IMG/VR virus record: IMGVR_UViG_3300027741_000153
Location: 1 to 35,447 of that record
DNA from: a virus
Reading direction: 5' to 3' (one strand)
DNA length: 35,447 bases
Shown piece by piece: positions 3,611-14,228 of the stretch (positions within the stretch are counted from its first letter, which is position 1; every line of letters starts with the position of its first letter). Below the pieces are notes generated by a model, which worked only from the letters and a program-made list of their open reading frames with translations, was not told where the DNA came from and did no database searches. A program made the translations under genes and the position numbers.

Positions 3611-6600
3611 ATGAGTAATTTAAATCAGGCAGCAGAAGATTTATTTTTTAAATTGCGTAATCGTTTTCCTAAAATCAATTTAGGTGACGAGAACGGTAAA
3701 ACTACTGTTGACCCAGAAAAAGGTAGATTTTTTAATTTTACGTATACTGATAAAGACAGTAAGCGTGAGTATGGCGATATTAGTTGTTCTTTGATTGATG
3801 GCAGTAGCCTTAAGGTATTCTTTGATACAGCAATTACTGAACGCATGTTGCCAGAAGATAAGAATTATTGGTATCAATTTTTGCGTGAATTGCGTCGTAT
3901 GGCAAAAAGCCATATGCTGAACTTTGATGTTCGTGATATCACAAAAGACACATTGAGCCGCCGTGATTATGAATACATGATTAAACTTAACCCTGAGAAG
4001 AAGAAAATGAAAGAATCATTAGAAGAAAGCCGTGTTGTATGGCAACGTCGTGGCAAGATTAGTGAAGGCGATCTTAATAATGTTCGCATCCATGTTGTTC
4101 ATAACGAAAAGATGTTAGAAAATCCAAACAACCGTTTGCTTAAAGTAGATCGTATCTATTGCGTAAATGAAGCAGGTGAAAAGTTCCTTCTTCCATTTAA
4201 AAGCGTTAGTGGCGCAAAGGCAATGGCAAATCACATTAGTCGTGGTGGCAATCCTTATGATTCTAATGGTCAGGTTATCTCTCGTGCAGTAAACGAAATG
4301 CGCAATCTCGGTCGTTTTGCGAGTGCTACTCGCAGTCGCACATTTGAAGCAGCAGAAGCAGGCAATGTTATCAAGGCTGCACAAGAAATGAAAGAAAGCA
4401 TTAAGCGTCATCTTAATCGTTTAAGCAATAACAGCCGTTCATTTGCTGAAAGCCTAACAGCATTAAATGATTTCTTGAGTGAACAAAGCGACGATGTAAC
4501 CGAAGTAAAAGGTTGGTTTACACAACAAACATATAATGAAAACCTAGACAATTATATTGCAAGTGCCGCTGGCGCATACAAAAAACTAAGAGAGAACGCT
4601 ATGAATAAACTTGATGAAGTCAGTGGTGCAGTTGAAAAGAAAATTCTTGATCCTAACTTTAAGTTGGTCCTAAAAGCAGATAGCGGACTTGATAAACTTA
4701 TGGTAACTCGCCAATATACCGATACAACTGCTCTACTAACTGCAGTGCTTGGTGATATTGCTAACCGTTTAATTGCAAAGGATGGAGATGATGTTGCTAA
4801 CTTTGCTGCACTTATGGGTGACCTTGTAAGCAGTGAAGGTGAAGCATTTGGTCAACGCAGCGAACCAGAATATAACCGTGATAAGAAACTTGCTATTGTT
4901 CTTGCACAAAAGTATATGAAAGACTTAGGCAAAATTCATAAGAACCCAGAGTATGCTGGTGAAGTTCGTAAAGAACCTAATGCTCGCCCAAGCGATCTTC
5001 GCAAGGTCAAGAGTGCTGGAGATGAGTTTGAAGAAAGCATTATGGGTCTTGGTGAAAGCCCAATGAGTCAACCAGTGCAAATTAATGGTAAGCAAGTTGA
5101 TGTTGATTCATTGGAAGTTGTTATTCCTGATACATCAGATTACCCAGATTTCAGCGATGCTTATTTTAGTGCTGGTTTATATACCGATGGCACGCCTATT
5201 GATGACCAAACCCTTGAAGACTTAGGTAGAACTCACGGTGATTTGCTACATATGACAGCACATGACCAAGTTCAAGGCATGTATGATGAAAGTGCTGTTA
5301 GTGAAGAAGAAGTAGAAGAAAGCGGACTTCAATATTATACTGGTAAAAAGAAGTATGGCAAAGATGGCATGGCTGCACTTGCAAAAGCAGGTCGTGAAGG
5401 CGCAAGTCAAGAAGAACTTGGCAAGATTAAAGACAAGTATATGAAAGAAGAAGACATTGATGAAGCAGATATGACTCGTCGTGGATTTCTTGGAGCATTG
5501 GGTGCAGGATTAGGTGCTGCCGCTCTTGGCTCTATTGCTGGTTCATCAAACGCCAAGGCTGACAATGCGATTGATCCAAAGGGACCAGATAGAAAAAAAG
5601 AATTGGTTCAACTAATTAAAACTGGAAAAATAGCAAGCTATGATGATTATGTAAATTGGGCATTTAGTAAAGCAGTAGAAGATGCTCCCATTCTTAAAAA
5701 AGGTGTCAAAGATGCAACCGATCAGGAGATCAAAAATACAGTCATTCATTTTGTAACATCTAGCCTAAATTTACCTAATTATAGTAAAATTTCAAACCAA
5801 TTAGCACACAGTGGTACAACCACTTTTGATTGGAGTAATCCACCAACGCAAATTCGTCAAGTAATCCAAAGTTATCTTACAAATATGAAAGCAAATGAGA
5901 GTGCAGTAAATGAAGAACCAAACGAAGGCAATGAGTTTAGTGGTGCATTAGCTGCAGCAAAGGCTAGTGGCAAGAAAGAATTTAAAGTAGATGGCAAAAC
6001 CTATCCAGTTAAGGAAGGCGATGCAAGCGAACCAGAACATCCAGATGCTGATGCTGATGACAAGCGTTGGGATGATCAAGAAGACGTAAAAGAAAATAAA
6101 CCAAAGGGAACCCCAATGAAAAACAAAAATATTGAAGAAATGCGTAAATTGGCAGGTCTGCCTTTGATGGAAAACTATATCTACGCACAAGAAGAAAGCG
6201 AAGATGAAGAAAATGCTCCTGATACTGTTCCGCACAGTGCTAATGAGCCAAGTGCTGACGACAAGGCAGAATATGATCAAGAAGGTCGTATGGCTAAGAG
6301 TGATTTGAAAACTGCAAAAGATGCAGCAGACGAACTGCGTTCAATTCTTGATGATGAAGAAAATCTTCCAGAATGGGTTCAGGCCAAGATTACAAAGGCT
6401 GTTGATTATCTAGACACTGCTCGTGACTATATGAAAGACAACGATGTAGAATATACTGACGAAAGCATTGAAGAAGCCAAGAAGAAAGGCAAGCCAGATT
6501 ATCTTGACTTTGACAAAGATGGCGACAAGAAAGAAACAATGAAGAAGGCACTTAGCGATAAGAAGAAGATGAAAGAAAGTGCTGATCTAACTTGGTTACA

Positions 6601-6628
6601 AGCAGTAGCGGGAATTGTTAGAAAATGA
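3611..6628 (+). CDS. Large mosaic protein, probable virion protein, with internal Tat-like signal
   Basis: 1005 residues, strongly charged, no enzyme motif recognised. Modules seen in order: an N-terminal globular part (1-130); an Ala-rich helical part (about 200-460); an INGKQVDVDSLEV-DYPDFSDAYFSAG module (about 491-560); GKKKYGKDGMAALAKAGREGAS (578-599); an I-D-E site (616-618) followed directly by a twin-arginine signal (622-650); a small domain (651-765); EFKVDGKTYPVKEG (790-803); an internal leader-like segment (836-854); and a tail with DFDKDGDKKE (966-975), an EF-hand-like acidic loop. Several modules recur in marine T4-like phage proteins as I remember them. It follows terminase in the late region and overlaps the next gene by 4 bp. 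It could be a virion, scaffold-like or ejected protein; processing by prohead protease is inferred. Confidence 0.8.
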   Translation: MSNLNQAAEDLFFKLRNRFPKINLGDENGKTTVDPEKGRFFNFTYTDKDSKREYGDISCSLIDGSSLKVFFDTAITERMLPEDKNYWYQFLRELRRMAKSHMLNFDVRDITKDTLSRRDYEYMIKLNPEKKKMKESLEESRVVWQRRGKISEGDLNNVRIHVVHNEKMLENPNNRLLKVDRIYCVNEAGEKFLLPFKSVSGAKAMANHISRGGNPYDSNGQVISRAVNEMRNLGRFASATRSRTFEAAEAGNVIKAAQEMKESIKRHLNRLSNNSRSFAESLTALNDFLSEQSDDVTEVKGWFTQQTYNENLDNYIASAAGAYKKLRENAMNKLDEVSGAVEKKILDPNFKLVLKADSGLDKLMVTRQYTDTTALLTAVLGDIANRLIAKDGDDVANFAALMGDLVSSEGEAFGQRSEPEYNRDKKLAIVLAQKYMKDLGKIHKNPEYAGEVRKEPNARPSDLRKVKSAGDEFEESIMGLGESPMSQPVQINGKQVDVDSLEVVIPDTSDYPDFSDAYFSAGLYTDGTPIDDQTLEDLGRTHGDLLHMTAHDQVQGMYDESAVSEEEVEESGLQYYTGKKKYGKDGMAALAKAGREGASQEELGKIKDKYMKEEDIDEADMTRRGFLGALGAGLGAAALGSIAGSSNAKADNAIDPKGPDRKKELVQLIKTGKIASYDDYVNWAFSKAVEDAPILKKGVKDATDQEIKNTVIHFVTSSLNLPNYSKISNQLAHSGTTTFDWSNPPTQIRQVIQSYLTNMKANESAVNEEPNEGNEFSGALAAAKASGKKEFKVDGKTYPVKEGDASEPEHPDADADDKRWDDQEDVKENKPKGTPMKNKNIEEMRKLAGLPLMENYIYAQEESEDEENAPDTVPHSANEPSADDKAEYDQEGRMAKSDLKTAKDAADELRSILDDEENLPEWVQAKITKAVDYLDTARDYMKDNDVEYTDESIEEAKKKGKPDYLDFDKDGDKKETMKKALSDKKKMKESADLTWLQAVAGIVRK
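5474..5560 (+). other. Internal twin-arginine (Tat) signal-like segment
   Basis: Codes residues 622-650 of the 1005-residue protein. It shows every part of a Tat signal: TRRGFLG (consensus S/T-R-R-x-F-L-K), a Gly/Ala/Leu hydrophobic stretch (629-643), and a c-region ending AKA before DN, a fit to signal peptidase I. A Met (621) directly precedes it, and an I-D-E site three to five residues before that would expose the signal if cut by a prohead protease. Function unknown; the match is by eye. Confidence 0.6.
6116..6628 (+). CDS. Possible nested in-frame gene (C-terminal 170 residues of the mosaic protein)
   Basis: Inside the 1005-residue gene an in-frame ATG at 6116 is preceded at 6 nt by AAAGGGA (6103-6109), a better ribosome site than the parent gene has. 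The product would begin MKNKNIEEMRKLAGLPLMEN, a leader of the same kind as those starting the genes at 867 and 6625. In-frame nested products are known for phage morphogenesis genes (lambda C and Nu3). Contents: acidic linker, a helical part (about residues 60-110 of the short form) and the EF-hand-like tail. It could equally be only a domain boundary within one long protein. Confidence 0.35.
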   Translation: MKNKNIEEMRKLAGLPLMENYIYAQEESEDEENAPDTVPHSANEPSADDKAEYDQEGRMAKSDLKTAKDAADELRSILDDEENLPEWVQAKITKAVDYLDTARDYMKDNDVEYTDESIEEAKKKGKPDYLDFDKDGDKKETMKKALSDKKKMKESADLTWLQAVAGIVRK

Positions 6629-6867
6629 TTGACGCAATTTCAGATATTAAGAGACTTAGTGGTCTTGTTGAATCAGAACAAGTAAATGAAGCAGCAATGC
6701 GAACTATTGATGATGCAATAAACGCACTTGCAAACTTGCGCCAACGTGCAAAAGAAATGCAGATCAATCATGTCAATACTGGTGGTCTTTCTAATGACGT
6801 TGTAGAAGAATTATATAATGTAATATTATTTTTAGAAAAACATAGGGATATAATGCACAATGGCTGA
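6625..6867 (+). CDS. Small helical protein with LSGL leader motif
   Basis: 80 residues. It starts MIDAISDIKRLSGLVESEQVNEA: the same leader type as at 867 and at residue 836 of the preceding protein, with L-V-E and V-N-E sites that resemble prohead-protease cuts. The remainder (AMRTIDDAINALANLRQRAKEM and onwards) is predicted helical by composition. Its start overlaps the stop of the 1005-residue gene (ATGA), so it is translationally coupled to it; its own end overlaps the next gene by 8 bp. Function unknown; likely works with, or is packaged like, its upstream neighbour. Confidence 0.65.
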   Translation: MIDAISDIKRLSGLVESEQVNEAAMRTIDDAINALANLRQRAKEMQINHVNTGGLSNDVVEELYNVILFLEKHRDIMHNG

Positions 6868-11566: not shown

Positions 11567-12586
11567 ATGAAGAAAGCACTTATTACAGGCATTGCCGGTC
11601 AAGACGGCAGTTATCTAGCAGAACTTCTGCTTAACAAAGGTTATCAAGTTCATGGTCTTATTCGCCGCAGCGCAAACTTTGACCACCCAAATATTCAAGA
11701 TGTTAAGGATCAAGTAACATTTCACAATGGTGATTTGAGTGATTCAAATAGCATCCGTAATCTTATTGACAAGGTAGAACCAGATGAGATTTATAATCTT
11801 GCTGCACAAAGCCATGTTAAGGTATCATTTGATATGCCAGAGTTAACTGGTGATACAAATGCTCTTGGACCGCTACGTATCCTAGATAGCATTCGTAGTC
11901 TTAAATTAACAAATAAGACCAAGTTCTATCAGGCATCAACCAGTGAAATGTTTGGTATCCAGAAGTTTAACCCACAGAAAGAAGATACTCCTTTCTATCC
12001 TGGTTCCCCTTACAGTGCAGCCAAGTTGTATGCTTATTGGATCACGGTAAACTATCGTGAAAGTTATAAGATTTTCGGTTGCAATGGTCTGCTATTCAAC
12101 CATGAATCTCCTCGTCGTGGTGAACTCTTTGTTACACGTAAGATTACCAAAGCATTTGCTAACATGGTATTGGGCAAGCAAAAGGTGTTGGAACTTGGTA
12201 ATATGGATAGTCTTCGTGATTGGGGTCACGCCAAAGATTATGTTCGTGCAATGTGGATGATGCTACAACACGAAACGCCAGATGATTATGTTGTTGCAAC
12301 AGGCGTTCAAAGCAGCATCCGTGATTTCTGTAACTCAACTGCTGAATACTTTGGTATCAAGTTAGTTTGGGAAGGAACCGGCATTAATGAAGTTGCTCGT
12401 AATTCTGTAACTGGTGATGTAATGATTAAGGTCAACCCAGAGTTCTATCGTCCAGTTGATGTTGTTAATATTCAAGGTGACGCTACCAAGGTTCGTGAAG
12501 TTCTTGGTTGGAAGCCAGAATATACACTACAAGACCTTGTTAACGACATGTGCGAAACCGATTACAATTTGGCAAAGAAAGGTTGA
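11567..12586 (+). CDS. gmd: GDP-mannose 4,6-dehydratase
   Basis: 339 residues. It converts GDP-D-mannose to GDP-4-keto-6-deoxy-D-mannose, the precursor of fucose, rhamnose, perosamine and colitose type sugars. SDR features: nucleotide-binding TGIAGQDGS (7-15), RRSANFDHP, NLAAQSHV, catalytic STSEMFG (Thr/Ser/Glu about 125-127) and YSAAK (Tyr149, Lys153), FNHESPRRGE, and RDWGHAKDYVRAMW. All are diagnostic of Gmd. Ribosome site ACGAGG 6-11 nt before the ATG. It opens a sugar cassette that continues to about 22110, with the next start only 2 bp after its stop. Slightly shorter than E. coli Gmd (373). gmd is known in several marine T4-like phages. Confidence 0.95.
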   Translation: MKKALITGIAGQDGSYLAELLLNKGYQVHGLIRRSANFDHPNIQDVKDQVTFHNGDLSDSNSIRNLIDKVEPDEIYNLAAQSHVKVSFDMPELTGDTNALGPLRILDSIRSLKLTNKTKFYQASTSEMFGIQKFNPQKEDTPFYPGSPYSAAKLYAYWITVNYRESYKIFGCNGLLFNHESPRRGELFVTRKITKAFANMVLGKQKVLELGNMDSLRDWGHAKDYVRAMWMMLQHETPDDYVVATGVQSSIRDFCNSTAEYFGIKLVWEGTGINEVARNSVTGDVMIKVNPEFYRPVDVVNIQGDATKVREVLGWKPEYTLQDLVNDMCETDYNLAKKG

Positions 12587-12588
12587 AC

Positions 12589-13011
12589 ATGGGACAGTTA
12601 GTATTTGCACCAATTAGTGTTGGCGATTTGTGGGACAAGATTACTATTCTCAACATCAAGTTAGAAGAATATAGTAAGGTTGACAATGAAACCAATCGTA
12701 TCAAGATTGAGTATGTTAATAAAGAATTAGCAGAACTCATGAAGATTATTGATGAACTTGAAGAACCAACTGAGCCAGTCGATGATGTTGTCAAGAATCT
12801 CAAGGCAGTAAATCATATGATTTGGCGACATGAAGATGTTGTGCGAACATATGGCACAGACTTAAAGCCATACGACAGTGAGTTTATCAAATTAGTCACT
12901 GATGTTCATCAAGGTAACAAAGACCGTTGCCAATACAAATTAGATATCAATAAACTTTACAATAGCGATATTGTAGAAACAAAGTCATATATCAACGAGG
13001 GATTGAAATGA
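12589..13011 (+). CDS. DUF6165-like protein in sugar cassette
   Basis: 140 residues from ATG 12589 (MGQLVFAPISVGDLWDKITILNIKLEEY). The PISVGxLxDKITILxIK opening and the repeated pattern of Asn/Glu-Leu helices match my memory of the DUF6165 family, usually found beside polysaccharide genes. It is all-helical, probably a coiled-coil pair (IKIEYVNKELAELMKIIDELEE). Starts 2 bp after gmd and overlaps the methyltransferase by 4 bp. An in-frame ATG at 12550 would overlap gmd and has no ribosome site. Biochemical role unknown. Confidence 0.75.
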   Translation: MGQLVFAPISVGDLWDKITILNIKLEEYSKVDNETNRIKIEYVNKELAELMKIIDELEEPTEPVDDVVKNLKAVNHMIWRHEDVVRTYGTDLKPYDSEFIKLVTDVHQGNKDRCQYKLDINKLYNSDIVETKSYINEGLK

Positions 13012-14228
13012 AGAAGATTTTAGAATTAGGTGATCACTACGTAAGTGATTTTATGAAGCCAGGCGCAGAAATGCGTGAAACAAAGCCATGGAGTCTTGAT
13101 TTGTATCTTGACGAAACCATTGGCGCAGTTCGTCTTGACGGTGTTGCACCACTTGACAAGATGTATGGTCAGTATTGGTATCGTAGTGGTATCAATACAA
13201 GTATGACAAAGCAATTAGGTGAAATCGTAAGCGAGATTACTAGTCGTACAAAGATTAACGATGGCGATATCTGGTTGGATATTGCTTGTAATGATGGTAC
13301 GCTACTTCGCCAAGTTCCTGATAACATGATTAAGTTGGGTATTGATCCTGCCGATGATTCATATTTGGAAGAAAGCCAAAAAGTTGCCGAAGTCAAGCAA
13401 GATTTCTTTAGCAAGGAAGCATATGAAAGCCTTGGTTATGGCAATGAAAAGGCAAAGGTTATTACTTGTATTGCTATGTTCTATGACTTAAACGATCCAC
13501 GTCCATTCATTCGTGATGCTCATTCTATTTTGGCAGATGATGGTGTATTCGTTCTTCAAATGAGTTATACTCCGCTTATGTTGAAGCAGTTGGCATTTGA
13601 TAACATTTGCCATGAACACGTTTATTACTATGATCTTCGTAGTATTCGTAAATTGTTTGCAAGTGAAGGTTTTGTTCTGCGTGATTGTTCACTAAATGAC
13701 ACTAATGGTGGTTCATTCCGTGTAACTTTCCAGAAGGATACAAGCGACGAGAAGACCTTTGCTACACGACAGATTCGTGACGTTTGTGAAATGCGTATTT
13801 CTTCAACTCTTGCATACGAAACACAACATTGGGATATCACCGATGTAAAACTTTGGAAAGACTTTGGTGACAATATCTGGTCATTGAAGGCGCAAGTTCT
13901 TGATTTCTTGCATCAAGCAAAGGCAGAAGGAAAGAAGGTTTATGGATATGGTGCATCAACCAAAGGCAATACGCTGTTGCAGTTGTTTGGAATTACACCA
14001 GATTTGCTAACTGCTATTGCTGAACGTTCACCATATAAGTTTGGTTTACAGACTGTCGGAACTAATATTCCGATTGTTAGCGAAGAAGAAATGAGAGCAG
14101 CTAACCCCGATTACTTGCTTGTTCTTCCTTGGCACTTTATTGATGAGTTCGTTAAGCGTGAAGGTGACTTCATCGCAAAGGGCGGTAAGCTAGTAGTTCC
14201 TTGCCCAACCTTCCAGGTTATTGGATAA
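13008..14228 (+). CDS. Sugar C-methyltransferase (class I SAM, NovU/TylCIII type)
   Basis: 406 residues. Family members transfer a methyl from SAM to C-3 (or C-5) of nucleotide-linked 4-keto-6-deoxysugars. The SAM site is WLDIACNDGTLL (about residues 89-100), then IDPADDS and ICHEHVYYYDLRSI (about 203-216), the invariant HEH-Y motif of this family. The C-terminal domain has VYGYGASTKGNTLLQ (about 312-326), typical of the Methyltransf_14 part. The Cys-rich zinc knuckle at the family's N-terminus is not visible, so the N-terminus is shortened. GAGGG ribosome site before the ATG. Its likely substrate is the GDP-4-keto-6-deoxymannose made by Gmd two genes upstream; that link is inference. Confidence 0.85.
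   Translation: MKKILELGDHYVSDFMKPGAEMRETKPWSLDLYLDETIGAVRLDGVAPLDKMYGQYWYRSGINTSMTKQLGEIVSEITSRTKINDGDIWLDIACNDGTLLRQVPDNMIKLGIDPADDSYLEESQKVAEVKQDFFSKEAYESLGYGNEKAKVITCIAMFYDLNDPRPFIRDAHSILADDGVFVLQMSYTPLMLKQLAFDNICHEHVYYYDLRSIRKLFASEGFVLRDCSLNDTNGGSFRVTFQKDTSDEKTFATRQIRDVCEMRISSTLAYETQHWDITDVKLWKDFGDNIWSLKAQVLDFLHQAKAEGKKVYGYGASTKGNTLLQLFGITPDLLTAIAERSPYKFGLQTVGTNIPIVSEEEMRAANPDYLLVLPWHFIDEFVKREGDFIAKGGKLVVPCPTFQVIG

Follow-up and report, generated by a model that had tools for sequence, protein, structure and literature searches.

The 1005-residue protein whose gene immediately follows that of the large terminase in the viral DNA analysed here (positions 1 to 35,447 of IMG/VR record IMGVR_UViG_3300027741_000153, a stretch of 35,447 nucleotides hereafter called the window) carries in its middle an exchangeable cassette, which opens with a hydrophobic, Tat-like leader directly behind an I-D-E motif. 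We tentatively read the product, with a probability of about 0.38, as a modular internal-head protein from which a prohead protease would free cassettes bearing membrane-targeting leaders, Tat export being possible for the subset of leaders with twin arginines. Comparison among relatives gives good support to the structural part of this reading, in which an exchangeable cassette has its leader behind xxE; cleavage by the prohead protease is plausible. The feature picked out by the sequence-only reading is real and, on comparison, proves to be a recurring architecture and no single oddity, though one for which Tat cannot be the general explanation. The features on which the argument turns are as follows.

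3611-6628, + strand: whole ORF, encoding the modular protein of 1005 aa (ORF translation; relatives at viral loci)
3611-5020, + strand: conserved N-terminal region, residues 1-470 (homology to PA5oct gp278; phrog_13484)
5045-5296, + strand: exchangeable module 1, residues 479-562, ESPM...DESA (moved, duplicated or absent in relatives)
5297-5458, + strand: exchangeable module 2, residues 563-616, GLQYYTGKKKYGKDGM... (moved or absent in relatives)
5439-5459, + strand: imperfect direct repeat at the left edge of the cassette (76% identity to 5883-5903)
5456-5464, + strand: I-D-E, residues 616-618, a possible prohead-protease site, followed by A619 (fits T4 gp21 L/I-x-E)
5465-5560, + strand: Tat-like leader, residues 619-650, ADMTRRGFLGALGAGLGAAALGSIAGSSNAKA (TIGR01409; shuffles; DMTRR in L022, L077 and L091)
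5561-5890, + strand: the cassette's cargo domain, residues 651-760 (searches returned no relatives; low-confidence, mostly helical model)
5883-5903, + strand: imperfect direct repeat at the right edge of the cassette (L002 and L004 have the empty site)
5900-6625, + strand: conserved C-terminal region, residues 764-1005 (relatives; EEMRKLAGLPL near base 6140)

Relatives of the protein were compared at 25 and 35 viral loci, some of them on the same contigs. Residues 1-470 and about 764-1005 are conserved among them; between these ends lies a slot whose modules differ from relative to relative by exchange, duplication, change of order or absence. The Tat-like segment opens an in-frame cassette of 148 codons that is absent, precisely and in frame, from L002-L005, where the sequence spanning the site is KYMK[KE]ED-AV[NT]EEPNEGNEF. 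Imperfect 21-nt direct repeats flank the cassette in the window at a spacing of 444 bases, that is 148 codons, and the precise absence together with these repeats is consistent with recombination within the linkers as the means of exchange. Cassettes also occur outside the slot, since in L021:6-1823 another extra module lies between two C-terminal modules, behind VDE and before VAEA. In L015:2011-4998, a long, repeat-like tail rich in Ala, Pro and Thr and ending in ELRRLAGL stands in place of the C-terminal part, and the missing C-terminal module is carried by a separate ORF further on. Elsewhere in the window, an HNH endonuclease ORF (1450-1959, opposite strand) stands just before the terminase gene, and GDP-mannose dehydratase-like and C-methyltransferase-like genes (11567-14228) form part of a run of likely sugar-modifying genes behind UvsX/UvsY-like recombination genes.

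Residues 616-650 of the protein read IDE followed by ADMTRRGFLGALGAGLGAAALGSIAGSSNAKA, and residues 616-652 read IDEADMTRRGFLGALGAGLGAAALGSIAGSSNAKADN; TRRGFL occupies residues 622-627 and AKA residues 648-650 (last base 5560), while the leader as a whole is the hydrophobicity maximum of the protein (KD 1.58, 19-residue window). The sequence-only reading had proposed a Tat-like segment with n-, h- and c-regions and an AKA site at residues 622-650, directly behind I-D-E, and both observations were borne out: within the full-length protein, NCBIfam TIGR01409 (TAT_signal_seq) matches these residues with 19.7 bits (curated cut-off 16.7), and I-D-E lies at residues 616-618. Pfam TAT_signal gave only a weak match (13.6 bits, below its cut-off of 22.7). 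As in bacterial Tat signal peptides described by TIGR01409, a TRRxFL motif, a moderately hydrophobic Gly/Ala-rich core and an AxA site are all present. That reading also called so good a segment unexpected in the middle of a structural-region protein. Among 20,000 composition shuffles, a simple Tat rule produced a hit in 13 and a hit with AxA in 4, and it found none in the ORFs of at least 100 aa of a related 338-kb phage (122,000 aa). A chance origin was considered, and is ruled out by the shuffles together with the recurrence of the segment in relatives. A Tat signal is expected at the N-terminus of the protein that meets the translocase; the motif here stands at residue 622 of the encoded chain, and the leader would become N-terminal only after a putative cut at E618. 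Translation from an internal start at M621 (base 5471), by which the 3' part of the gene would yield a Tat-exported protein of its own, is suggested by the ATG that precedes ACT CGT CGT in all four cassettes with twin arginines; as the sequence before this ATG (GATGAAGCAGAT-ATG) has no clear Shine-Dalgarno element at the normal spacing, and leaders lacking the arginines have no ATG at that place, we regard it as highly improbable.

Leaders were surveyed in 27 distinct relatives, window included. One strong hydrophobic segment follows the N-terminal region in 14 of these, L060 has a weaker segment of a different kind, and the remainder, about half, have no leader. With L088, L091 and L092, added by module search, there are 17 distinct leaders, every one of which starts directly behind xxE ([IVM]xE in 12, TDE in five); the sequences bearing them are mutually related and fall into about four leader types, so these counts are not independent. 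Twin arginines occur in four of the 17 (window, L022, L077 and L091), always as DMTRR and preceding two unrelated cargo domains; outside DMTRR these leaders are only 38-46% identical to that of the window, and their hydrophobic cores differ. In the remaining 13, a Gly/Ala-rich core (as in AGINLGGKIGAGALALGLGATA and GIGKTIAAGALAAGLGAG) is accompanied by one K or R only, or by few charges. The anticipated conservation of the arginine pair in homologues therefore held in part, in the four DMTRR leaders, and failed in the other 13 and in the leaderless half of the relatives. It follows that the common feature is a hydrophobic leader at the start of a module, of which the Tat-like form is a subset, and that Tat export cannot be the general function. 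A wider spread of E[AED]DMTRR was also considered: an exact-pattern scan of viral contigs returned 29 stretches, a hydrophobic core followed only in family members, and the matches outside the family look like chance.

These observations bear on one of the two main rival explanations, namely that the leaders are membrane-active, Gly/Ala-rich segments acting at ejection or at the membrane of prohead assembly, with the arginines as a positive flank and without involvement of Tat. Such a role would suit the 13 leaders without twin arginines, in which one K or R accompanies a hydrophobic core rich in Gly and Ala, and the result that only the window's leader passes TIGR01409, L091 and the twin-arginine modules of L022 and L077 falling below the cut-off; T4 proheads, too, are attached to the membrane while assembling (PMC9026906). 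The same explanation leaves unaccounted the invariance of DMTRR in leaders that otherwise differ so widely, and the full n-h-c layout with AxA in the window, and we consider it possible, though doubtful.

The cargo behind the window's leader has no relatives in phage records, in viral contigs (where the scans reach close relatives only) or in GTDB genomes, and no match among solved structures; the Tat module, modelled from its single sequence, gave a mostly helical structure of low confidence (pLDDT 54). Third codon positions of this cargo are AT-richer than in the rest of the gene (0.19 vs 0.28-0.29). Together with a leader that starts with Met, in the manner of a gene start, the isolation and composition of the cargo could indicate that part of a Tat-exported host protein was captured recently and is functionless in the phage; as DMTRR leaders stand in frame in four family members, before two kinds of cargo, we think this very unlikely. 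The cargo of other leaders looks beta-beta-beta-alpha. Its HicB-like matches are only weak (best E 0.06), and no function is therefore drawn.

As the protein contains 14 [LI]xE motifs, five of them [LI]xE[AGS], I-D-E is by itself unremarkable. The cleavage rule of T4 gp21 is L/I-x-E (PMC9026906), and among the leader sites only the window's IDE followed by A conforms strictly to it, P3 elsewhere being V, M or T; the T4 prohead-protease pattern that had been proposed therefore describes the window's site and not those of the other leaders. P3 differs in other large phages too, SPN3US being an example with cleavage after A-x-E (PMC10052503). With boundaries defined as the points where local alignments of differing module arrangements end, 91 of 146 swapped-module boundaries lie within 6 residues of [ILVM]xE, vs 43 expected (2.1-fold), whereas control motifs ([ILVM]xD, [ILVM]xK, [ILVM]xA and [AGST]xE) do not exceed expectation. 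This enrichment fits protease sites between modules, but would equally arise from a linker of fixed sequence that is prone to recombination. Accordingly, the other main rival holds that the protein is never cut, the [ILVM]xE linkers being short conserved sequences at which recombination occurs and the hydrophobic segment a part of an intact structural protein. It would yield an identical enrichment at boundaries, and draws further support from linkers that are alike in DNA and protein, from the imperfect direct repeats on either side of the cassette, and from the departure of other leaders from strict L/I-x-E. We nonetheless judge it rather unlikely, because a relative encodes a gp21-type protease and a segment of this kind, always at the start of a module, would be unusual in a soluble virion chain. 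In the 338-kb relative, two proteins contain a stretch of xxE followed by SASAG, perhaps the context of real prohead cut sites in this group.

L033:3615-4832 (G001:143614-144831), 338-kb relative: major head protein (YLAESASAGATAAGN)
L043:12885-13775 (G001:232884-233774), 338-kb relative: second protein (VIGESASAGASSAGG)

Among the genes of the 338-kb relative (record of L024) are those for an S77 prohead protease of T4 gp21 type, the major head protein and the portal; PF03420 (prohead protease) is matched in this phage and in PA5oct. The window, which is a fragment, contains no prohead protease gene. Between the protease and the head protein of the relative, at the position of the T4 scaffold gp22, lies a protein of phrog_10922, a family without known function. 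This scaffold-like protein ends in IIEMKRLAGLK, and the 1005-aa protein contains EEMRKLAGLPL. Motifs of the RLAGL type occur three times in the relative's ORFs of at least 100 aa vs 0.5 expected, their carriers being the member of the 1005-aa protein's family, the scaffold-like protein, and a protein matching a virion structural family. By analogy with the capsid targeting sequences of T4, we infer that the motif may bind the prohead core. In the window, the next ORF (6625-6867, 80 aa) starts with MIDAISDIKRLSGLVESEQVNEAAM, in which an RLxGL-type motif is followed by VNE and then A (VNE, AAM); this start resembles a short targeting propeptide with a putative cut site, and the product is possibly a small internal head protein.

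Residues 1-345 of the 1005-aa protein are homologous to gp278 of Pseudomonas phage PA5oct (phrog_13484), whose gene likewise lies close behind a terminase gene, and the N-terminal region matches phrog_13484, a virion structural protein; alignment of this region against GTDB genomes returned no relative. The record of gp278 bears an ESI-MS/MS note, by which the protein is recorded as found in virions. Unlike the 1005-aa protein, gp278 has 496 aa and lacks exchangeable modules and leaders, and its presence in virions therefore does not show that cassettes are packaged.

Among known systems, the nearest comparison is with T4, in which the internal head proteins (IPI-III and Alt) and the core proteins gp22, gp67 and gp68 are processed by gp21. 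Common to both are a protein with xxE sites that is head-associated (putatively so here), a prohead protease of the same family (here in a relative), and a short motif shared with a scaffold-like protein. In T4 each internal protein has its own gene and a single N-terminal targeting peptide, whereas the chains described here, with candidate cut sites, hold many exchangeable modules, some with a hydrophobic or Tat-like leader. A second comparison is with the ejection (E) proteins of giant phages, such as gp53 and gp54 of SPN3US. These too are head proteins of a large phage with xxE sites, after which a gp21-related protease cleaves, making several cuts in a propeptide (PMC10052503). In SPN3US the cuts follow A-x-E and remove N-terminal propeptides, with no export-like leader described; the sites here are candidates. 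Titles and abstract openings in the open-licence literature yielded no virion or ejected protein with a Tat signal. Phages do eject proteins into the host cytoplasm.

The route proposed by the sequence-only reading, from a cut at head maturation to export of the ejected protein in the next host, is coherent and in part supported. For the preferred reading of a modular internal-head protein, we propose the following course of events. The 1005-aa ORF would encode a protein of the prohead-core type in a large T4-related myovirus, its middle serving as a slot for exchangeable cassettes that are separated by short acidic linkers ending in [I/V/M]xE, the cassette described here comprising a hydrophobic leader and a small cargo domain. 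At head maturation, the gp21-type prohead protease would cut behind xxE, making the leader the new N-terminus of the cargo, which would be kept in the head and enter the next host together with the DNA. There the leader may bring the ejected cargo to the inner membrane, where forms with twin arginines (window, L022, L077 and L091) might be exported by the host Tat pathway, and the other forms would more likely just insert into the membrane. Retention of the cargo is uncertain, because most fragments of the multiply cut core proteins of T4 leave the head (PMC9026906).

In favour of this reading are the precise in-frame absence of the cassette, its direct repeats, leaders that always stand behind xxE, boundaries rich in [ILVM]xE, the constancy of DMTRR despite differing cores, the protease, portal and head genes of the relative, the virion note of PA5oct gp278, and the RLAGL motif. 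Against it count the preponderance of leaders without twin arginines, the leaderless half of the relatives, a P3 that is mostly V, M or T, the loss of fragments in T4, the module-less PA5oct homologue, the mutual dependence of the relatives, and a window without a protease gene. The fuller proposal, in which the cassettes are head-packed effectors, the protease exposes an export leader, and the Tat system of the next host carries the twin-arginine forms to the periplasm, we consider unlikely.

If that proposal were nevertheless true, then the export signal of a virion-delivered protein would be silent until capsid maturation, and a cryptic host-export signal exposed in this way would constitute a new route to the inner membrane or periplasm at the onset of infection. 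The slot would then serve phages as a site for the exchange of effector domains, and the succession of xxE and leader a simple rule usable to look for further cases. Even without Tat, a hydrophobic leader that recurs at the module starts of a head-type protein needs explaining.
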